In this document: positions 2,422-36,040 of the stretch, in pieces
Numbering within the stretch: the first letter of the stretch is position 1
Layout of the letters: each line of letters starts with the position of its first letter
Assembly (NCBI RefSeq): GCF_016411865.1
Contig: NZ_JAEKJA010000001.1
Location: 124,001-188,000, forward strand
Origin: Acuticoccus mangrovi
Lineage (GTDB): Bacteria > Pseudomonadota > Alphaproteobacteria > Rhizobiales > Amorphaceae
Length of the DNA stretch: 64,000 nt
Direction of reading: 5' to 3'
Program-made: the position numbers and the translations under genes
The notes under the pieces: model-generated
Seen by the model: only the letters and a program-made list of their open reading frames with translations
What the model was told of the DNA's origin: nothing
The model's database searches: none

Positions 2422-2862
2422 ATGAGTCAAAGCGCGAACTTCGAGCTCGACGCCTTTTTGCCCTACCAGCTCGCCATTCTGTCGAGCCGGGTCAGTGCCG
2501 AATTCGCCGAGATCTACGGACGTCGGTTCGGCCTGAGCCTTGCCGAGTGGCGCGTGGTTGCTCACCTGTCCGCCGCCGACAAGGTGTCGACGCGGGAAGT
2601 GTTCGCACGTGTCGATCTCGACAAGGCGAAGATCAGCCGTGCGGCGCAGCGGCTTGAGGCGAACGGTCTCATCGAGAAGCGCCAGAGCGCCGTCGACCGC
2701 CGCCTGGTGGAGATGAGCCTCACCCAGAAGGGGCGCGATATGATGGCGGAGATCGCCCCCATCGCGCGCCGCTTCGAGGCCGACTTCCTCGCTCGCTTCG
2801 CCGACGGCGACGGCCGCGCGTTCCAGCGATTGGTGATGGAGGCGCTGGAGGCTTCGAAATGA
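2422..2862 (+). CDS. MarR family transcriptional regulator
   Basis: A 146-residue winged-helix regulator. The segment [23 protein letters not shown] followed by [18 protein letters not shown] and the wing [18 protein letters not shown] is the canonical MarR domain. An upstream in-frame start at 2296 would add 42 low-complexity residues; [17 protein letters not shown] at 2422 matches the normal family N-terminus. It overlaps maiA by 4 bases and is divergent from hmgA, so it most likely controls homogentisate catabolism with a pathway aromatic acid as ligand (inferred). Confidence 0.9.
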
Positions 2863-3485
2863 TTCTCTACGACTATTGGCGTTCATCGGCGGCCTACCGG
2901 GTCCGCATCGCGCTCAACCTGCTCGACATGAAGTACGAGCTCGTGCCGGTGGATCTGACCGCGGGCGAGCAGCGCTCGGCGGCGCACCTTGCCCGCAACC
3001 CGCAGGGCCTCGTGCCGGCGCTCGAGATCGACGGGGTGATGATGACCCAGTCGCTCGCCATCATCGAATATCTCGACGAGACGCGTTCCGCGGGCTTCCG
3101 TCCCGCCGAGCCGGTGGAGCGGGCGAAAGTGCGCGCCATCGCCTACGCCATCGCGATGGACCTCCACCCGATCTGCAACCTCTCGGTGGCGCAGGCGGCG
3201 GTGAAGGCGTCCAACGGGGCGATCGGGATGAAGGACTGGATGCACACCTTCATCGGCCCGCGCATGCTCGCGGTGGAAGAGATGCTCGACCGCTCGCGCA
3301 CCGGCCGCTTCGTCCACGGCGACCGGCCGGGGATCGCCGACATCTGCCTGGTGCCGCAAGTCTACAACGCCCGCCGCTGGGAGGTCGACCTTTCGGCAAT
3401 GCCCCACACCCTCGCGATCGACGCGGAGATGGCGGCGCTGCCGGCCGTCGCCGCCGCCCACCCCGACCGCGCGCGGCCGGGCTGA
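2859..3485 (+). CDS. maiA: Maleylacetoacetate isomerase (zeta-class GST)
   Basis: Glutathione-dependent cis-trans isomerase converting maleylacetoacetate to fumarylacetoacetate, the step between HmgA and FahA. The 208-residue protein starts [20 protein letters not shown], the zeta-class signature with the SSAAYRVRIALN glutathione-activating motif. NPQGLVPALE and TQSLAIIEYLDE form the rest of the thioredoxin-like domain, followed by an all-helical domain with GDRPGIADICLVPQVYNARRW. Its ATG overlaps the marR stop (ATGA). It converges on dctM with only two bases between the stop codons. Confidence 0.94.
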   Translation: MILYDYWRSSAAYRVRIALNLLDMKYELVPVDLTAGEQRSAAHLARNPQGLVPALEIDGVMMTQSLAIIEYLDETRSAGFRPAEPVERAKVRAIAYAIAMDLHPICNLSVAQAAVKASNGAIGMKDWMHTFIGPRMLAVEEMLDRSRTGRFVHGDRPGIADICLVPQVYNARRWEVDLSAMPHTLAIDAEMAALPAVAAAHPDRARPG

Positions 3486-3487
3486 GG

Positions 3488-4821
<1,334 letters not shown>

Positions 4822-4825
<4 letters not shown>

Positions 4826-5385
4826 TGGTCCTCGTCCGCGTCGCGACCGGAAATGAGGGCGGCCAGGGTGCCGACCGCCCGCGCCAGGCCGGCGATGGCG
4901 AGAAGGCCGAAGGCGAGCGGGATGCAGGCCTTGAGGAACCACCTGTCGGTGAGGCCGCCGTAGGTGGAGGCTTCGCCGCTCGTCCAGGAGGTGAGGGCGA
5001 ATTTCACGCCGAACCAGGTGATGATGATGCAGAGCGGCAGCAGGAAGATGAGGTCGCCGATCACCTCGACCACCTGCCGCACGCGCGGCGGGAAGGCGGC
5101 CGACAGGAAGTCCACGTTGACGTGCGCGTCGTCGCGCAGCGCATAGACGCCGCCGAAGAGGACGAGAAGGGCGAAGATCGTCCATTGCAGGTCGGTGAGG
5201 GTGTTCACCGTGACGGCGGAGCCGAGGAAGGGCACGTCGCCCTCCCACCCGGCGATGCGGTTGACGCCGACCTGCCCGGCCACCACCGCCGTCACCACGA
5301 AGACGATGAGGGGCAGGATGAGCCACGACACGGCCTTGCCGAGGAAGGCGGTCAGGTCGACGATGATGCGGCAGGTCTTGATCAT
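4822..5385 (-). CDS. TRAP transporter small permease (DctQ family)
   Basis: Four-helix membrane subunit that joins the large TRAP permease. The 187-residue protein has hydrophobic segments near residues 15-35, 60-75, 105-125 and 145-165. DLQWTIFALLVLFGGVYALRDDAHVNVDFL is typical of the family: the VALRDDAHVNVD-type loop after helix 2. It ends in a charged tail (GRDADEDQ). Middle gene of the dctP-dctQ-dctM operon, 80 bases below dctP and translationally coupled to dctM. Confidence 0.92.
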
Positions 5386-5465: not shown

Positions 5466-6500
5466 TCAGTGACGCGGCAGCGCCTGGAGCGTATCCCACT
5501 CGCCGACCTTGTCGATGTAGTTGACGAGGGACTCGTAGGCCTCCTTGAAGATCGCGTCCTTCTCCGCCTCTTCCTCCATCACCTCGGTGGAGGCTTCGCG
5601 CAGCGCCGCGAGCACCTCGTCGGGGAAGCGCCGCACCGTCACCCCGGCCTCGCGGATCTTGGCGATCGCCTCGCTCTGGGCGCGCAGCTGGTCGGCGAGG
5701 TTGTAGGTGATGTTCGCCTTGCAGGCCTCCACCATGATCGCCTGGGTCTCCTCGTCGAAGCCGTTCCAGACGTCCATGTTGATGATGATGGAGTCCCAGC
5801 TCGAGGGCTGATGCCAGCCGGGGAAGTAGTAGTTCTTGACGATCTTCTGGAAGCCGAAGCCGATGTCGAGCTGCGGCGCGGAGAACTCGGTGGCGTCGAT
5901 GCGGCCGGTCTCGAGCGACACGTAGATCTCGCCGGCGGGGACGAGCTGGGTGTTGGCGCCGAGGCGGGCGAGCGCTTTGCCGCCGAGGCCGGCGATGCGC
6001 ATGTTGAGGCCCTTGAAGTCCTCCGGCGTGTTGATCTCCTTGTTGAACCAGCCGCCGGCTTCGGGAACCACCAGGTGGCAGGGGATCACCTTCACATTGT
6101 GCGCGTCGTAGGCCTTCTGGATGATCTCGAGGCCGCCGCCTTCGAACATCCAGGAGAGGGCGACGTCGGGCGTCGGGCCGAACGGCATCGAGCCGATGAG
6201 GTTGGCGACGGGAATCGTCTCCGCCCAGTAGCCGATCCAGTCGAAGCCCATCGGGATCGCGCCGGAAGAGACGGCGCCGAACACCTCGAACGGCGGGACG
6301 AACTCACCGGCGCCGTGAACGTCGATCTCGATGTCGCCGTCGGTCATCAGCGCGACGCGGTCGGCCCAGAGCTGCGGGCTCGGCCCGATCGAGGGCACCT
6401 GCAGGCCGAAGACGCTCTGAAGGTCGAAGCTCTCGGCAGCGGCGGGCGACGCAGCCCCGGCCATGGCAGCGAGCATCGCCACCGTGATGGTCTTTCTCAT
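5466..6500 (-). CDS. TRAP transporter substrate-binding protein (DctP family, TakP-like)
   Basis: Secreted periplasmic receptor that hands substrate to the DctQM membrane pair. The 344-residue protein starts MRKTITVAMLAAMAGAASPAAAES, a Sec signal cut after AAA. An in-frame ATG 12 bases upstream is possible, but GGGAGGAAC lies just before the chosen start. Residues NMRIAGLGGKALARLGA contain the conserved Arg that binds the substrate carboxylate, and DATEFSAPQLDIGFGFQKIVKNYYFPGWHQPSS resembles the alpha-keto-acid/lactate-binding class (TakP). The ligand is therefore probably a monocarboxylate or keto acid; this is inferred. Confidence 0.9.
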   Translation of the reverse strand: MRKTITVAMLAAMAGAASPAAAESFDLQSVFGLQVPSIGPSPQLWADRVALMTDGDIEIDVHGAGEFVPPFEVFGAVSSGAIPMGFDWIGYWAETIPVANLIGSMPFGPTPDVALSWMFEGGGLEIIQKAYDAHNVKVIPCHLVVPEAGGWFNKEINTPEDFKGLNMRIAGLGGKALARLGANTQLVPAGEIYVSLETGRIDATEFSAPQLDIGFGFQKIVKNYYFPGWHQPSSWDSIIINMDVWNGFDEETQAIMVEACKANITYNLADQLRAQSEAIAKIREAGVTVRRFPDEVLAALREASTEVMEEEAEKDAIFKEAYESLVNYIDKVGEWDTLQALPRH

Positions 6501-6530: not shown

Positions 6531-6568
6531 GTTGTTCGTTATGGCTGATCGCATTTGTCATATACAAA
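6531..6568. promoter_or_regulatory. Two-part regulatory element upstream of dctP
   Basis: The 15-base palindrome TTTGTCATATACAAA (6554-6568) is followed, toward dctP, by a 15-base gap and CGAACAAC (minus strand, 6531-6538). The same elements with identical spacing precede the SDR gene at 9964-10001. The palindrome overlaps the 3' end of the EamA gene. The two IclR genes of the locus are the obvious candidate binders (inference). Confidence 0.6.
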
Positions 6569-7489
6569 TTTAGAGGGGGGATCAACTGGAACACTCGCCC
6601 CGCGTCGACGGTTTGTTAGATCGAGCGAAACAATGAGCCCGAGGCTGGCGAGGAGGAGCGCCGCCCACTGCAGGAGGCTCGGCACGCTCCCCGACATCGG
6701 GACCGCGAGAAAGGCGGCGAGCGGCGGCACCAGGGCGGTGAAGAGCGCGGCGCGGCCGGAGCCGAGCAGCGAGATCGCCGCGGCGAAGGCGATGATGGCG
6801 AGCAGCCCGCCGAGGACGCCCTGATAGATCGCCTGCATCACCCACGCGACGACGGGTTGATGGCTCGGCGAGAAGAACGCCACGTAAATCGGGCCGAACA
6901 GCACCGTGGAGATCAGCGCGACGGTGGCGGTGGTGTCGACGGGATCGAGCCGCCAGCGGCCGAGGAGATAGGTGAAGGAGCCCCACAGGAAGCCGGAGCC
7001 CATGAAGCAGAGATCGCCGACCCAGGGCGCGTGGGTGAGGCTCTTGTGCTCGGGCTGGTCGAACCCCACCAGCGCGAGGCCGACGATGAGGATCGCCATG
7101 CCGAGGAGTCGCTGCGGCGGAATCGCGCGGCGCTCCACGACGAGGGAGAGGGTGTTCGCGACGATCATCGTCATCGCCGGTCCGATGACCACGGCGTGGG
7201 CGAGCGGGGCCATGCCGAAGCCGAGATTGATCAGGTAGGAGAAGGGCGGCCCGATGCCGATGGTGAGCACCAGCGCTCGCCCCAACCCGACGCGGACGAG
7301 CCGCCGCGACCGCGTCAGCGCGTAGGGCAGGACGAGCAGCGCCGGCACCGCGTAGCGCAGGATGACGAGGTCGGCGCCGGTGAAGCCCGACGAGCGGCCG
7401 ATGTCGACGCCGACATTGTAGATCGCCCAGGCGATGGCGGCGCCGGCTCCGCAGAGGGTGCCGCGCAGGGTGGCGCCGCCGGGTCTCAA
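6539..7489 (-). CDS. DMT superfamily transporter (EamA, two-repeat)
   Basis: Inner-membrane drug/metabolite-type transporter of about ten helices, 316 residues. It contains two EamA repeats: the first begins GTLCGAGAAIAWAIYNVGVDIGR, the second VGDLCFMGSGFLWGSFTYLLGRW. LGMAILIVGLALVGFDQPE between them is typical of a repeat end. No ATG lies near the expected N-terminus. A TTG at 7489 overlaps the stop of the upstream flavoprotein gene (TTGA) and gives the right length, so translational coupling is likely. Substrate unknown; possibly import or efflux of the compound handled by the SDR and flavoprotein. Confidence 0.85.
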   Translation of the reverse strand: MRPGGATLRGTLCGAGAAIAWAIYNVGVDIGRSSGFTGADLVILRYAVPALLVLPYALTRSRRLVRVGLGRALVLTIGIGPPFSYLINLGFGMAPLAHAVVIGPAMTMIVANTLSLVVERRAIPPQRLLGMAILIVGLALVGFDQPEHKSLTHAPWVGDLCFMGSGFLWGSFTYLLGRWRLDPVDTTATVALISTVLFGPIYVAFFSPSHQPVVAWVMQAIYQGVLGGLLAIIAFAAAISLLGSGRAALFTALVPPLAAFLAVPMSGSVPSLLQWAALLLASLGLIVSLDLTNRRRGASVPVDPPSKFVYDKCDQP

Positions 7490-9201
7490 TCGTTGGCTCG
7501 GGCCATGTGGCGGGCGGCGATGTAGCCGAACGTCACGGCGGGGCCGAGGGTGATGCCGCCGCCGGGGTAGGCGCCACCCATGATGCTCGCCGCGTCGTTG
7601 CCGGCGGCGTAGAGGCCCTCGATGGGCTGGCGGTGCTCGTCGAGCACGCGGGCGTTCTCGTCGGTGGCGAGGCCGACGAAGGTGCCGAGGTCGCCGACGA
7701 CGAGCTTCACCGCATAGAACGGGCCCTTCTCGACGGGCGCGACGCAGGGGTTGGGGGTGTGCTCCGGGTCGCCGAGGGAGCGGTTGTAGGCGGTGCTGCC
7801 CTTGTGGAACTCCGGGTCCTCGCCGCGTCGGGCGGGGCCGTTGAAGCGCTCGACGGTCCGCTGCAGCTCCGCCGGGTCGGCGCCGATCTTCTCGGCGAGC
7901 TCGGCGAGCGTCTTGCCGACGATCAGATAGCCCGTCGCCACCTCGCGGCCGTAGGGGACGGGGGCGGGCTTGGCGTAGCCGAGCCCGTATTTGCGGAAGG
8001 TGGGATGGTCGGCGATGAAATAGGCGCAAATCTCGCCCCCTTCCTCGCCGCAGCGGGCCACCATCGCCTGGCAGAAGACGTGGTAGGAATCCGCCTCGTT
8101 GACGAAGCGGCGGCCGGAGCGCGTCACGGCGATGATGCCGGGCTTGGAGCGGTCGACGAAGTGGGGGAAGGTACCGAGCGTGCCGTCGGGCCGCACGGGG
8201 CGGGAGATCGGCACCCAGGCGGCCGCATTGGGGAGCGTGTCGTCGACGTAGGCCCCGACCGCTTCACCGAGCCGCAGCCCGTCGCCGGTATTGCCCGGCG
8301 GGGCGGGGGAGGCGTGCTCGTAGCCGGAGGGCGAGTGGGGGAAGAGGGCCTTGCGCCGCACCGCGTCCTGCGGAAAGCCGCCGCAGGCGAGCACCACGCC
8401 CTTGCGCGCCGTCACCTCCACCGGCCCCTCCGGGGTGTCGACGAGAGCGCCGATCACGCGCTCCTCCAGGATGCGCAGCTTGCGCACCGGCGCGTTGGTC
8501 CAGATCGGCACGTTTCGATCGAACGCCGACTTGGCGAGCCGGGCGACGAGCGCGTTGCCGTTCATGAGGCGCATGGCGCGCCCGTAGAACAGCTTGTCAC
8601 GCATGAACTTCGCAAACAGCTTCGAGACGAACAGGGCCGAGATCGGTGAGCGGGTGACGCGGAAGAAATGGAGGAGCTCCTTGCCGGACCCGATCATCAT
8701 GCCGAGGAAGGTGATTTCCGCAAGCGGCGGGCGCAGCCGGGCGATTTCCGGTCCGAGCTCGCGCCCGTCGAACGGGCGGGCGACGATGGAGCGCCCGCCG
8801 GGCATCCCGCCCGGAGCGTCGGGGTGGTAGTCGGCGAAGATCGGGCCGAGGTCGAATTGGAGCGCGGTGTTCTCCTCGAAGAACTCCACGGCGCGGGGCG
8901 CGGTGTCGAGGTAGGCGTCGACGCGGGCGGGGTCGAAGTGGTCGCCGGTCTGGCCCTTGAGATAGGTGCGGGCGGCGGCGGCGCTGTCCTCGACGCCGGC
9001 GCGACGGGCCGGCGCGTTGCACGGCACCCAGAGCCAGCCGCCGGAGCGGGCCGTGGTGCCGCCGAAGACCGGCTCCTTCTCCACCACGAGCACGTCGAGA
9101 CCGCGGTGGGCGGCCGACACGGCCGCGGAGAGACCGCCGGCGCCGGAGCCGACGACGAGGACGTCGCATTCGTGACGACGCGGCTTGATGGGTGCGTTCA
9201 T
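7486..9201 (-). CDS. FAD-dependent dehydrogenase (3-ketosteroid dehydrogenase / fumarate-reductase flavoprotein family)
   Basis: Flavoprotein that probably introduces or reduces a C=C bond next to a carbonyl. The 571 residues begin with CDVLVVGSGAGGLSAAVSAAHRG, the GxGxxG FAD-binding fold, followed by VVEKEPVFGGTTARSGGWLWVP. VVLACGGFPQDA lies mid-protein, and the C-terminal FAD segment YAAGNDAASIMGGAYPGGGITLGPAVTFGYIAARH is near 530-565. This layout is shared by KstD, succinate dehydrogenase-like and urocanate-reductase-like enzymes; no haem or flavin-transfer domain is present. Its ATG overlaps the SDR stop by 4 bases and its stop overlaps the EamA start, so SDR-FAD-EamA form a coupled operon. 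Exact substrate not inferable. Confidence 0.88.
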   Translation of the reverse strand: MNAPIKPRRHECDVLVVGSGAGGLSAAVSAAHRGLDVLVVEKEPVFGGTTARSGGWLWVPCNAPARRAGVEDSAAAARTYLKGQTGDHFDPARVDAYLDTAPRAVEFFEENTALQFDLGPIFADYHPDAPGGMPGGRSIVARPFDGRELGPEIARLRPPLAEITFLGMMIGSGKELLHFFRVTRSPISALFVSKLFAKFMRDKLFYGRAMRLMNGNALVARLAKSAFDRNVPIWTNAPVRKLRILEERVIGALVDTPEGPVEVTARKGVVLACGGFPQDAVRRKALFPHSPSGYEHASPAPPGNTGDGLRLGEAVGAYVDDTLPNAAAWVPISRPVRPDGTLGTFPHFVDRSKPGIIAVTRSGRRFVNEADSYHVFCQAMVARCGEEGGEICAYFIADHPTFRKYGLGYAKPAPVPYGREVATGYLIVGKTLAELAEKIGADPAELQRTVERFNGPARRGEDPEFHKGSTAYNRSLGDPEHTPNPCVAPVEKGPFYAVKLVVGDLGTFVGLATDENARVLDEHRQPIEGLYAAGNDAASIMGGAYPGGGITLGPAVTFGYIAARHMARAND

Positions 9202-9950
9202 TGGACGAGGTACCCTCCATCGACGGGCAGCAGGGCGCCGGTGACGTAGCTGGACATCTTGGAAGCGAGGAAGAGGACCGGGCCGACGAGCTCCTCCGCT
9301 TCGCCGACGCGCTTCATGGGCGTGTGGTCCATGAAGCGGCCGATGGCGGTGGGGTTGGCGCGGGTGGTCTCGGTCATCGGCGTCGCGATCACGCCGGGCG
9401 CGATGGCGTTGACGCGGATGCCGACGTCGGCGAGCTCGGCGGCGAGGGCGCGGGTGAACTGCAGGATCGCCCCCTTGCTCGCCGCGTAGGCGGAGATGTT
9501 GGGGCCGGCGATCACCGACATGATCGATCCGAGATTGACGATGCGCCCCTTGGTCGCCGTGAGCTGGGGCAGGAAGGCGCGCACCATGTTGCGCGACCCG
9601 TCGACGTTGACGCGAAAGATCCGGTCCCACCCCTCGTCGAAGCCCTCCGCCACGAACGGCTCGCGGCGGATGATGCCGGCGTTGTTGACGAGGATCGCGG
9701 CCTCGCCGAGCTCCGCCTTCACCGTCTCGGCGACGGCGGCACAGGCCGCCTTGTCCGCAACGTCCACCGCCACGGCGATGGCATGTCCGCCCGCCGCGAC
9801 GATCTCGTCTGCCGTTTTCCGTGCCGTCTCGCCGTCGATGTCGGCCACGGCCACGTGTGCGCCGGCCCGTGCGAGACCGAGCGCGATGGCGCGCCCGTTG
9901 CCCTGGCCCGCGCCGGTGACGACGGCCACCGACCCCCTAACGCCTTCCAT
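9198..9950 (-). CDS. Short-chain dehydrogenase/reductase
   Basis: Classical NAD(P)-dependent SDR of 250 residues. The cofactor motif TGAGQGNG is near residue 12, VADIDGE follows beta-2 (Asp suggests NAD preference), NNAG sits in the core, and the catalytic set is Ser in LGSIMS and Tyr/Lys in YAASK near residue 155. It ends with YVTGALLPVDGGY. First gene of the SDR-flavoprotein-EamA operon, preceded by the two-part operator at 9964-10001. It probably oxidises a hydroxyl group before the flavoprotein acts (inferred). Confidence 0.92.
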   Translation of the reverse strand: MEGVRGSVAVVTGAGQGNGRAIALGLARAGAHVAVADIDGETARKTADEIVAAGGHAIAVAVDVADKAACAAVAETVKAELGEAAILVNNAGIIRREPFVAEGFDEGWDRIFRVNVDGSRNMVRAFLPQLTATKGRIVNLGSIMSVIAGPNISAYAASKGAILQFTRALAAELADVGIRVNAIAPGVIATPMTETTRANPTAIGRFMDHTPMKRVGEAEELVGPVLFLASKMSSYVTGALLPVDGGYLVQ

Positions 9951-9963
9951 CCCGACCGCTCTT

Positions 9964-10001
9964 GTTGTTCGTGACTAATGAATGCGTTTGACTATATCAA
10001 A
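9964..10001. promoter_or_regulatory. Two-part regulatory element upstream of the SDR operon
   Basis: The palindrome TTTGACTATATCAAA (9987-10001) is separated by 15 bases from CGAACAAC (minus strand, 9964-9971), 13 bases before the SDR start. Arm sequence, spacer length and the second element match the element ahead of dctP. The surrounding 75 bases are AT-rich compared with neighbours, as expected for a promoter. Confidence 0.6.
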
Positions 10002-10025: not shown

Positions 10026-10808
10026 TCAGTCGAGTCCCTGATCGGCGCCGAGCTCCTGGCTGACGTGGGCAGCGGCCGCCTTGAGGGGGGGCAGGAAGGG
10101 TGAGGCGGGCGTGGTGTCGAGGAGGGCGGCGGCGCCAATCATGGTGATGGCGAACTGCATGACGCCGGAGAGGTCGAAGACCGGCACCGACAGGGCGTTC
10201 ACCCCGGGGACCGGGGGCGGGGAGACGGTGGCGTAACCCTCCCGGCGGATGACGGCGATGTCCTCGGCGGTGAGGGTGGCCGTGTTGCCGACACGCCCGG
10301 GCGCGCCGGAGCGGCGTTCGGCGGCGAGCGCCTTGCCGACCATCCGGTCGGGCCCGAAGGCGGCGAACACGCGCCCGCTCGCCGTGCCGGTGATCGAATA
10401 GACCGTGCCGGCCTTGGTGTTGATGTGGATCTGGTCGGGGCCCTCGTGGACCTGGATCACGGTGGGGCCGAACGAGCCCCACACCACGATCGCGATGCTG
10501 AAGCCGGTTTGCGCCGAGAGTGCGGCGGCCGCCTCCTGGCCGACGCGGATCGGGTCGACGCTGCGCATCCGGACGATGCCGAGATCGAGCGCGGCCGGGC
10601 CGAGCCGGTAGCGGGCCGATCCCGGCTCCTGCTCCACCAGGCCGAGGGTGCGCAGGCTCGTGAGATAGGCGTGCGCCTGAGCCGGGGCCATGCCGGCGGT
10701 CGAGGCGAGATCGCGCAGCATCATCGGTGTGCAGCTCGCCGCGAGCGCCTCGAGAAGCTCCGCGCTCACCTCCACGGAGCGCACGCCGCGCCCTTCCTTT
10801 CTGTTCAT
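10026..10808 (-). CDS. IclR family transcriptional regulator (first of two)
   Basis: A 260-residue regulator with an N-terminal winged helix (VEVSAELLEALAASCTPMMLRDLASTAGMAPAQAHAYLTSLRTLGLVEQE) and a C-terminal GAF-like ligand domain (VVWGSFGPTVIQVHEGPDQIHINTKAGTVYSITGTASGRVFAAFGP). AGMAPAQAHAYL replaces the commoner P.sTv.R recognition helix and is shared with the next gene. It sits just upstream of the SDR operon on the same strand and is separated from the second iclR gene by 20 bases. It probably senses the transported acid. Confidence 0.92.
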   Translation of the reverse strand: MNRKEGRGVRSVEVSAELLEALAASCTPMMLRDLASTAGMAPAQAHAYLTSLRTLGLVEQEPGSARYRLGPAALDLGIVRMRSVDPIRVGQEAAAALSAQTGFSIAIVVWGSFGPTVIQVHEGPDQIHINTKAGTVYSITGTASGRVFAAFGPDRMVGKALAAERRSGAPGRVGNTATLTAEDIAVIRREGYATVSPPPVPGVNALSVPVFDLSGVMQFAITMIGAAALLDTTPASPFLPPLKAAAAHVSQELGADQGLD

Positions 10809-10828
10809 CTCATTCTCTCCGGGGGGGC

Positions 10829-11596
10829 TCAGGCTGCGGCCGTCGCGAGCCCGCTGGTGGTCGCGGTGAGCGTCTCTAGGACCCCGTCGGGGGCGGCGAC
10901 GTCGAGGCGGGCGGGCGAGCCCATCACGATGATCGCCGCCGTGAGGTCGCCCTCGGCGTCGATCAGGGGGGCGGCGAGGGCGTTGACCCCCGGCACCGGC
11001 GTGTTGCGCAGGATCGCGTGGCCGGCGGCGCGCACCGCGGTCGCCGCCTCGCCGATGGCGGTGTCGCGGGTGAGGAGGTCGCCCAAGGCGAGGCGCTCGC
11101 GCACGCCGCCGGCGCCGCGCACCTCCACCGTGCGCTCCGGATCGCCGAATGCGGCGAAGACGATCGCCGGCGAGGTCGCGGCGAGGGCGAACATGGTGCC
11201 GACGCGGATGTTGACGTTGAGCACCTCCTCGCCGTCGGTGCGGTGGATCACCGTGGGGCCGTGCGGTCCCCAGACGGCGAGCGTCGCCATGATGCCGGCG
11301 GTGTCGGCGACGCGCGTGGTGGCGGCGACCGCGGCGGCGAGGGCGGGCTGGGTGCGCAGCCGCGCCATCGCGAGGCGTGTCGCGAACGGGCCGAGGCGGT
11401 AGTGGCCGGTGGCGGCGTCCTGCTCCACGAGGCCGGTGCGGCGGTAGCTCGCGAGATAGCCGTGCGCCTGGGCCGGCGCCATCCCGGCCGCCGTCGACAA
11501 CTCCTTCAACGACATGTCCGCAGGCCCTGCGACGAGCGCCGCGAGGAGCCGCCCCCCCACCTCGAGCGACTGGATGCCGCGTGGCTGTCTTCCCAC
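10829..11596 (-). CDS. IclR family transcriptional regulator (second of two)
   Basis: A 255-residue paralogue of the downstream IclR protein: GIQSLEVGGRLLAALVAGPADMSLKELSTAAGMAPAQAHGYLASYRRTGLVEQD is the winged helix, with the same AGMAPAQAH recognition helix, and AVWGPHGPTVIHRTDGEEVLNVNIRVGTMFAL starts the ligand domain. The frame stays open far upstream, but a GTG at 11596 follows GGGGAG at good spacing and gives a normal N-terminus (VGRQPRGIQSLEV), so it is preferred to the ATG at 11818. Likely a tandem duplication that diverged in ligand specificity. Divergent from the CoA-transferase gene. Confidence 0.88.
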   Translation of the reverse strand: MGRQPRGIQSLEVGGRLLAALVAGPADMSLKELSTAAGMAPAQAHGYLASYRRTGLVEQDAATGHYRLGPFATRLAMARLRTQPALAAAVAATTRVADTAGIMATLAVWGPHGPTVIHRTDGEEVLNVNIRVGTMFALAATSPAIVFAAFGDPERTVEVRGAGGVRERLALGDLLTRDTAIGEAATAVRAAGHAILRNTPVPGVNALAAPLIDAEGDLTAAIIVMGSPARLDVAAPDGVLETLTATTSGLATAAA

Positions 11597-11811
11597 CGAA
11601 TCTCCCCTTGCCGCGCGGTCCGTGCGCAACCTCGCTGCCCGCGCGCGTTCTGTGTGAGCTGCACTCTTAGCGCGAGGTCGGGCCGGTGGGAAAGCGCACT
11701 CGGCGCGGCGGTCGTGCCGGTTGCGGATGGACCCGTGCCGCCGCATGCGCTTTGTTCGGAGGGGCGGGGCCCACGCGCTCCGATGCTGCCGCAAGGAATG
11801 GTCGCCCTCCC

Positions 11812-14313: not shown

Positions 14314-14334
14314 GACCAGTTGACCAGGCTGGTC
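14314..14334. promoter_or_regulatory. Candidate FadR/GntR operator
   Basis: A perfect 13-base palindrome GACCAGGCTGGTC (14322-14334) with an additional GACCAG half-site directly before it (14314-14319), 21 bases before the start of the adjacent FadR-type regulator. TGGTC/GACCA half-sites are typical of FadR-subfamily GntR proteins, so autoregulation is likely. Confidence 0.55.
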
Positions 14335-14355
14335 TTTTTTCGACGCCAGGACGCG

Positions 14356-15111
14356 ATGACGCTCGACGCCTTCATCCTCGAAACCGTGCCGGAGCTGCGC
14401 GATGGCATCGGGCGCCGCAGCCTGCGCGAGGTGGTGGCGGGGAAGATCGCGTGGCTGATCGCCTCCGGCATTCTGAAGCCCGGCGACGACCTGCCGCCGG
14501 AGCGGGCGCTCGCGACGGCGCTGCGCGTCAGCCGCGAATCGGTGCGCGGCGGGGTGCAGATCCTCGCCACCATGGGGGTCGTCGCCGTCGCCCATGGCAC
14601 CCGCACCAAGGTGCTGTCGGACCGGGTGGACGCCGACCTCGTCGGCACCCGGCCGAGCCTCATCAACTCCTACTCGCTCGAGGACGTGCATGCCGCCCGC
14701 CTCGCCGTGGAGCGCCCGGTGGTGGCCGACGCGGCCGAGCGGATCGACGAGGGCGTTCTCGACATCCTCGAGGATCTCCTCGTCCAGCATCGCGCCGCCT
14801 TCGAGGACCCGGTGCGCTTCCTCATCGTCGACCGCGAGTTTCACCTCGCGATCTACCGGGTGTGCGCGAACCCGGTCCTGGCGGACTTCGTCTCCGATCT
14901 CTACGCCTACATGATGCCCCATCGCTTCCGTGCGATGGCCGAGCCGGACGCGATCCGTCGCTCGTTCGAGGACCACGAGGCGATCCTCGCGGCCCTCAAA
15001 GCGCGCGACCGTGCCCACACCGTCGCCGCCTTCGACGTCCACATCCGCCACATCTACGAGACCACGATGGCGATCCTCGCCCGATCGGGAGGACCGCCCG
15101 CCGTGAACTGA
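14356..15111 (+). CDS. FadR-subfamily GntR transcriptional regulator
   Basis: A 251-residue regulator. The N-terminal winged helix SLREVVAGKIAWLIASGILKPGDDLPPERALATALRVSRESVRGGVQILATMGVV is the GntR signature. The C-terminal all-helical FCD domain is visible in FLIVDREFHLAIYRVCANPVLADFV and the final RSFEDHEAILAALKARDRAHTVAAFDVHI, where Asp and His residues form the metal/ligand site. An in-frame TTG at 14320 lies inside the palindromic operator, so ATG 14356 is preferred. It leads the sugar ABC transporter genes on the same strand, 80 bases ahead, and is the obvious local regulator. Confidence 0.9.
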   Translation: MTLDAFILETVPELRDGIGRRSLREVVAGKIAWLIASGILKPGDDLPPERALATALRVSRESVRGGVQILATMGVVAVAHGTRTKVLSDRVDADLVGTRPSLINSYSLEDVHAARLAVERPVVADAAERIDEGVLDILEDLLVQHRAAFEDPVRFLIVDREFHLAIYRVCANPVLADFVSDLYAYMMPHRFRAMAEPDAIRRSFEDHEAILAALKARDRAHTVAAFDVHIRHIYETTMAILARSGGPPAVN

Positions 15112-35468: not shown

Positions 35469-35907
35469 GCGTCTAGCGCCTTGCCGCTGGTGTCGAACCG
35501 AGTGGTGACGGTGTCGTGGGCTGCGGCCGGGCGTGGTGCGGATCGCGTGTCCCGGTGTCGGAGCCGGCGAGAGGCCTCAGGGGCGGCTCACCATGCCGAG
35601 ATGGGCGTGCTTGCAGGGCGCGGCGGTGGGCCAACGACGCGATGCGGCGCCGGCGCGGTCTGCCGCCAGCCGGCGGTGCGGCTTCGACATCGGGATCCGC
35701 GATCGACCCTCGCGAGCAGGTGCCGAACTCCCCGGAGGGACCACGGACAAGGCCGACGAGATCGCAGACGATGCCAACGCTTTGCATAGGTCCTGTCCGT
35801 GCCGTGCGAGACTGATTGTCCGGATCAATGTGTTGAGACGACAGGTGTCGCGCGAAAGGGAACATCGCTCTTGGCGTAAGACGCATCGCCGCCAGGCCGC
35901 CGGAGAG

Positions 35908-36040
35908 CTTTATTATCATGTTGTATCTATTGAGTAATTCCATAAAATGAGATCATATATCCAACTATTAGTCAATAATAAGAACAGATGAATTGTTAGG
36001 CAAAAGTACGAACAAATACGCGCAATGTGCTCATTTTATC
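35908..36040. repeat. AT-rich block with nested inverted repeats
   Basis: Much richer in A+T than the rest of the window. ATAAAATGAG (35942-35951) and CTCATTTTAT (36030-36039) are perfect inverted copies 78 bases apart. A second pair, TATTGAGTAAT (35928-35938) and ATTAGTCAATA (35967-35977), has one mismatch. Could be a regulatory site, a remnant of a small terminal-repeat element, or foreign DNA. Confidence 0.6.

Follow-up and report, generated by a model that had tools for sequence, protein, structure and literature searches.

The 64,000-nucleotide stretch of the Acuticoccus mangrovi genome considered here (contig NZ_JAEKJA010000001.1, positions 124,001 to 188,000; hereafter the window) carries on its minus strand two paralogous genes for IclR-family regulators, IclR2 and IclR1, followed in order by genes for a short-chain dehydrogenase/reductase (SDR), a flavin adenine dinucleotide (FAD)-binding dehydrogenase, an EamA-type transporter and the DctP, DctQ and DctM proteins of a tripartite ATP-independent periplasmic (TRAP) transporter. 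Two elements of 38 bases punctuate this series, one within the 75-base gap between IclR1 and SDR and the other in front of dctP. A pattern search of the window placed them at 6531-6568 and 9964-10001, both on the minus strand and both reading TTTG-N7-CAAA, 15 bases and then CGAACAAC, exactly the two identically oriented elements that a sequence-only reading of this DNA had described. Absent from that reading is the overlap of the stronger palindrome of the dctP site with the 3' end of the EamA open reading frame (ORF), whose stop codon ends at 6539, so that bases 6539-6568 would be subject to two constraints at once.

In the window there are two copies of the combined pattern, against a chance expectation of 0.00 and a maximum of 0 in 100 shuffles, and throughout the genome (5,457,789 bases in 65 contigs) these two places are the only ones found even when the gap is allowed to range from 10 to 30 bases. 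The palindrome alone, written as TTTGWN5WCAAA, is present at three places in the genome, namely the two window sites and C45:178787, where the 60 bases inspected on either side contain no second unit. CGAACAAC alone is unremarkable, with four copies in the window for 1.14 expected; the third of these, at 2337-2344, lies 55 bases before the start of the homogentisate dioxygenase gene (hmgA) and is not accompanied by a palindrome. When the two sites are aligned as 34-mers, 20 of 34 positions are identical, as are all four bases of the adjacent GTTG, whereas the flanks agree at 8 of 56 and 17 of 60 positions. This fits a tandem site set in unrelated surroundings better than a recent duplication, which the sequence-only reading had also disfavoured; its statement that the intervening sequence is not conserved is too simple, given the 20 identities.

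Judged from its bases, each element consists of two 15-bp pseudo-palindromes of the TTNG-N7-CNAA type in tandem, with 4 bp between them and 19 bp from centre to centre. On this 15-bp frame the dctP site reads TTCGTTATGGCTGAT cgca TTTGTCATATACAAA (6535-6568) and the SDR site reads TTCGTGACTAATGAA tgcg TTTGACTATATCAAA (9968-10001). The palindrome of the sequence-only reading is therefore real, but its partner was misparsed as an octamer: CGAA belongs to the weaker unit, whose outer end it forms, and CAAC is a flank shared by the two sites. The unit centres fall at -42 and -61 from the dctP ATG and at -25 and -44 from that of SDR, all within about -20 to -80 of the gene start, and their 19-base separation at both sites lies within a range of 18-22 nt, with the caveat that the weaker dctP unit is a poor one. 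A symmetric matrix for the unit, trained on 21 sites from relatives and none from the window, gave the two sites 26.6 and 20.7 bits; the next best score in the window was -2.2, and the highest on 640 kb of resampled window was 4.3 bits.

For comparison, a search through 84,980 species' genomes supplied relatives of IclR1, of which the 80 best among 264 were used, along with two plasmid regions. Gene content was compared in 47 of these 82 loci, and period statistics were gathered separately for 42 non-Bradyrhizobium loci and for a second set of 40, all of them from Bradyrhizobium or Bradyrhizobiaceae except L096 (Microvirga). The exact TTTG-N7-CAAA was discarded as a search motif because it is too narrow: it had no match in L036-L040, which made the comparison look negative, and L038-L040 were later found to carry a tandem site of the TTCG/TTAG type. 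The consensus of the relatives' units has G at position 4, C at position 12 and halves that are 7 apart. Pairs of TTNG-N7-CNAA units, one exact and its partner with at most one mismatch, were counted at distances from 10 to 44 bases; the 42 non-Bradyrhizobium loci yielded 29 at 19 bases and no more than nine at any other distance, and five first-order resamplings of them yielded 0-1 at 19 bases. The second set contained 37 pairs at 19 bases and at most two at other distances, and of the three loci without a pair (L096, L108 and L111) the last two are represented by DNA that starts less than 2 kb before the IclR gene. With the symmetric matrix at 17 bits there were 49 matches at distance 19 in 22 of the 42 loci and 0-6 at each other distance (15-45), and 37 of the 40 second-set loci were matched at 19 with 0-2 matches at each other distance, some of the loci in these counts having also provided training sites. 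A more independent test came from a matrix built on nine loci with tandem IclR pairs alone, which picked up Bradyrhizobium sites at 22-35 bits. No period other than 19 bp is enriched among the relatives' loci.

Tandem sites recur beside IclR1 relatives in other families and other alphaproteobacteria, including loci in which the IclR pair is conserved. Tandem IclR genes are present in 14 of the 47 loci (L046-L056, L059, L077 and L126), and the gap before the pair contains two 15-bp pseudo-palindromes 4 bases apart in 13 of them, all but L056; TTTGCCATGATCAAA tcaa TTAGTCAATGATGAA is an example. In most divergent GMC/IclR gaps from Rhodobacterales a unit reading TTTGYCAT..CAAA is followed by an unlike one reading TTRGTCAAT. 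Lineages in which one IclR gene was found at the locus (Microvirga, Bradyrhizobium and the G350 family) also carry tandem sites. As for the genes served, such a site precedes dctP in L047, L048, L051, L053 and L055, SDR in L061, L064 and L081, and the FAD dehydrogenase in L056, L057, L061 and L064, which supports the proposal that the two window operons share a regulatory element whose likely binders are IclR proteins. Further targets are a GMC oxidoreductase gene divergent from the IclR pair, a flavoprotein of the old-yellow-enzyme type (L052) and, in a Bradyrhizobium locus (L084), a periplasmic binding protein gene divergent from that of a major facilitator superfamily transporter. In a survey of 43 hand-chosen matrix sites, a subset of all sites, at least one adjoining ORF points away from the site in 41, the exceptions being L046 at 4066, where there is no outward gene, and L052 at 222, near the locus end; the outward ORF begins 30-120 bases off in 24 of the 43, and there are others with an over-long called start or a larger gap.

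In the G350 family the SDR, FAD dehydrogenase and IclR genes are divergent from dctPQM, and the DctP and SDR proteins are 71-75% and 64-66% identical to those of the window. In three of its loci a tandem site scoring 15.9-17.5 bits occupies the shared SDR/dctP gap, and in a fourth, cut by a contig end, it stands before SDR, whereas the window operons are co-directional and have one copy of the site each. SDR promoters of the Roseomonas-group type show a weaker form, mostly far under the matrix threshold: in ten that were aligned (eight from the Roseomonas group, with L078 and L080) TTGCGAA is kept in all ten and is followed, four bases on, by TTCG in eight and by CTCG or ATCG in two. In four SDR promoters (L063, L070, L071 and L072) GCAATGAACAAA and TTTG..TTGCGAA-N4-TTCG form two conserved blocks at a distance of 33 bases, and the Roseomonas-group SDR promoters may hold three or four putative IclR units in a row. 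As a control, 30 loci were taken through DctP from 212 matching genomes, and when the window's own and that of G350 had been set aside, 28 remained usable (L154-L181); only two gave a 13-bit match, one of them inside the DctP gene and the other about 1.5 kb off. A further locus whose DctP is 55% identical, and in which no IclR relative was found (L186), had no 12-bit match. The near-absence of sites from the DctP-fetched loci supports the link between site and IclR gene. What can be read directly from the DNA is where the sites lie, the period they keep, the homologous promoters at which they recur (with exceptions, as discussed below) and the presence of IclR genes next to them.

Each window IclR protein has complete IclR domains, scoring above the gathering thresholds for PF09339 and PF01614. 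In a tree of 49 rows, from which an out-of-frame outgroup (L018), the distant L015 and ten near-duplicates were left out, IclR1 falls among the second genes of tandem pairs (96/92) and IclR2 among the first genes (87/74; 83% of bootstrap trees), the latter on a long branch and not strongly supported. Given these ordered groups, the pair is probably old and has probably kept its order. The recognition helices of the two paralogues are nearly alike, PAQAHAYL and PAQAHGYL, and align with PASKVHRYL in KdgR (5y6i), the best-matching solved relative; it seems that an unusual recognition helix may go with the unusual half-site. The suggestion that the two paralogues recognize the two elements separately is disfavoured, as the architecture is the same at both sites, the helices are so similar and lineages with a single IclR also have tandem sites.

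Taken together, the sequence evidence makes it very probable that both elements are tandem operators of the IclR-family regulator or regulators encoded at 10026-11605, which would bind as a tetramer and co-control both operons. With 4 bp between the two 15-bp pseudo-palindromes, a pair of IclR dimers would be spaced by about two turns of the helix and would sit on nearly the same side of the DNA, where they could act as one tetramer per 34-bp site. Occupancy would then jointly control the dctPQM uptake operon and the SDR-FAD(-EamA) operon, and uptake by the TRAP transporter would be coordinated with oxidation of one substrate class by the SDR and the FAD dehydrogenase. Binding, tetramer formation, the sign of regulation and the effector are what we infer. 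Between site and start codon there are 34 bases at dctP and 17 at SDR, so that a bound protein would be expected to obstruct transcription; the likeliest form of control is therefore repression that a substrate-derived effector relieves, a preference that comes from position only. An aromatic or related compound is a plausible substrate, because homogentisate genes (relatives of HmgA or of maleylacetoacetate isomerase) are found in 21 of the 47 relatives' loci and in the window. Those of the window, at 920-2281 and 2859-3485, are genes we take to be such by sequence recognition and the annotation of L127.

Features of the two predicted operators and of the surrounding genes (window coordinates).
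Feature	Position	Strand	Basis or remark
GTTG flank, dctP site (CAAC of the octamer); common to both sites	6531-6534		alignment
dctP operator (predicted), weaker unit TTCGTTATGGCTGAT	6535-6549		2.0 bits alone; contains minus-strand CGAA
dctP operator, 4-bp spacer cgca	6550-6553		sequence
dctP operator (predicted), strong unit TTTGTCATATACAAA	6554-6568		18.7 bits; inside 3' end of EamA ORF
GTTG flank, SDR site	9964-9967		alignment
SDR operator (predicted), weaker unit TTCGTGACTAATGAA	9968-9982		8.9 bits
SDR operator, 4-bp spacer tgcg	9983-9986		sequence
SDR operator (predicted), strong unit TTTGACTATATCAAA	9987-10001		17.7 bits; in IclR1-SDR gap
DctM	3488-4825	-	PF06808
DctQ	4822-5385	-	PF04290
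DctP, TRAP solute-binding protein	5466-6500	-	PF03480
EamA-type transporter, start uncertain	6539-7492	-	PF00892
FAD-binding dehydrogenase, next gene after SDR	7486-9201	-	PF00890
SDR dehydrogenase	9198-9950	-	PF13561
IclR1, candidate binder	10026-10808	-	HTH_IclR + IclR_C
IclR2, paralogue, start uncertain	10829-11605	-	HTH_IclR + IclR_C
GntR/FCD regulator	14320-15111		about 4 kb from SDR site

Within the genus the cluster appears to be patchy and may have been gained horizontally, since a search of seven same-genus genomes (G001-G007) found no close orthologue of IclR1 (best E 2.3e-21). Elsewhere in the window, an AT-rich intergenic island at 35900-36010, in otherwise GC-rich DNA, contains a single unit-like sequence, TTAGTCAATAATAAG, at 35968-35982, which is nearly identical to the second unit of Rhodobacterales and has no good partner at 19 bases. 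The ORFs near this island presumably include nucleoside-hydrolase-like and arylsulfatase-like proteins, as judged by eye.

Several observations weigh against a tandem IclR operator at both window promoters, beginning with the score of only 2.0 bits for the weaker unit of the dctP site. An oriented 34-base matrix from the nine tandem-pair loci gave the SDR site 7.2 bits and the dctP site 3 at most, and ranked two places near 35.9 kb first, at 12.4 and 10.4 bits; a clear result in the window requires the symmetric matrix and the added Bradyrhizobium sites. An Infernal profile, which does detect relatives' sites (several of them among its building set) but proved too weak for searching a whole genome, found no match at E<=10 in the whole genome and none in the window with filters on; unfiltered, it ranked the two sites as the top two in the window, at E 0.45 and 0.8. 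Since the relatives were fetched through IclR, the co-occurrence of IclR gene and site is partly a matter of design, and the DctP-anchored control is weak, as 26 of its 28 DctPs are only 36-42% identical. At 17 bits, 20 of the 42 non-Bradyrhizobium loci have no site in the DNA examined, and the Phreatobacter-type loci L058, L060, L068 and L069 show no match of at least 13 bits, L058 and L060 (Phreatobacter) being without a site despite an intact IclR-SDR-FAD-DctPQM order; in L036, apparently the contig of L058, the IclR-SDR gap is only ~30-60 bases, so that control may have moved or been lost. The sequence-only reading had staked its proposal on the element being neither missing from orthologous operons nor scattered at random through the genome, and the proposal withstands that comparison, if not cleanly, given those 20 loci. 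Finally, a scan for sigma-70 promoters near the sites found none of consensus type, so repression by occlusion is something that we infer.

Among other explanations, the nearest to a tandem IclR operator is that a mixed complex of IclR1 and IclR2, either a heterodimer or one homodimer per palindrome, reads the operator and integrates two signals. The gene pair that looks old and has kept its order (tree groups 96/92 and 87/74), the different and ordered units in most divergent GMC/IclR gaps of Rhodobacterales and the near-identity of the two recognition helices would all suit such a complex, but tandem sites with two different units are also seen in lineages with a single IclR, the window IclR2 sits on a long branch with a grouping that is not strongly supported, and a literature search over the titles and abstract openings listed turned up no published heteromeric IclR; on balance we regard a mixed complex as possible but unlikely. 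Marginally less likely still is an obligate heteromer in which IclR1 and IclR2 units would each occupy one of the unequal palindromes and two effectors would be integrated at each promoter of the regulon; if true, this would be a heteromeric complex of IclR proteins that is distinguished by a half-site geometry of its own (TTNG-N7-CNAA).

Odd-length AT-rich palindromes occur for the GntR/FadR-type family too, and with a GntR/FCD regulator encoded about 4 kb from the SDR site, the sites might belong to another regulator of that kind and the IclR genes be bystanders. This strikes us as improbable: the window GntR has no relative (E 1e-10) in the 47 loci of IclR relatives or in a second group of seven loci, the factor common to the loci is IclR (as the fetch was designed to ensure), and a 19-bp tandem period has been described for IclR (PMC8222616). 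CGAACAAC might instead be an independent element of the mRNA leader, such as a site for an RNA-binding protein or a small RNA, since it lies between palindrome and start codon in both cases and recurs upstream of hmgA; with CGAA forming the end of the second 15-bp unit, in a position that is fixed in relatives lacking the octamer, and with the octamer alone near its chance frequency, we rejected it as a separate element and give this idea slightly less credence again. As to recent duplication or chance as the origin of the likeness, the elements are 3.4 kb apart on the same strand, but both were rejected and seem to us scarcely credible in view of the unlike flanks, the nil expectation, the 19-base enrichment in relatives and the presence of such sites at homologous promoters of other species.

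A tandem IclR operator at both promoters would provide a predicted operator, regulator and regulon for a catabolic cluster, the regulon comprising the TRAP transporter, the SDR and the FAD dehydrogenase and, in relatives, also the GMC oxidoreductase, the flavoprotein of the old-yellow-enzyme type and periplasmic binding proteins. The combination of unusual helix residues and a shifted half-site allows DNA selection by IclR proteins to be tested directly, and with a conserved pair of paralogues the existence of heteromeric IclR regulators becomes a testable question.

Tandem sites are already well represented among IclR operators. A comparative survey (Suvorova and Gelfand, 2021; PMC8222616) predicted tandem palindromes, spaced by 18-22 nt, as the binding sites of 94 of 181 IclR orthologous groups, placed most site centres at -20 to -80 and linked tandem sites to tetramers. 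The architecture here thus belongs to a known kind, since its centres are separated by about two turns of DNA (19 bp) and lie in the same interval before the start codon; DctPQM is also among the co-regulated genes that the survey names. An IclR-family tetramer on one operator, as we predict here, is seen in the TtgV-operator complex (PDB 2XRO; cited in PMC8222616). The half-site is where the window departs from the survey. Its group 1 (subgroup WTT-11-AAW) becomes TTYCRYWWWRYGRAA when written in a 15-bp frame, whereas the fourth base here is G (TTNG-N7-CNAA); alternatively, the window half-site can be read as the usual TTCG with halves two bases further apart than in group 1. In neither form does it fit the group 1 motif GKTYCRYW3-4RYGRAMC, in which the fourth base of the 15-bp frame is C or, in the other reading, the TTCG halves are 5-6 bases apart, and neither form appears in Table 1 of the survey, whose supplementary motif tables may list an identical motif. 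PcaR, PcaU and PobR, group 1 regulators of aromatic catabolism, share half-sites of the TTCG/CGAA type with the window but space them as GTNCG-N5-6-CGNAC, rather than with N7 between TTNG and CNAA; and the operators of PcaU and PobR consist of one palindrome and an additional half-site, three boxes in all, in contrast to the tandem full palindromes found here. On the protein side, TtgV contacts DNA through Ser48, Thr49, Gln51 and Arg52 (PMC8222616), and PAQAHAYL and PAQAHGYL are changed at the Ser, Lys/Thr and Arg places, according to the KdgR (5y6i) alignment and a by-eye match to the TtgV numbering. The window sites are thus most likely tandem IclR operators of a familiar type that differ in a half-site geometry missing from Table 1 of the survey and are accompanied by a conserved pair of IclR paralogues.

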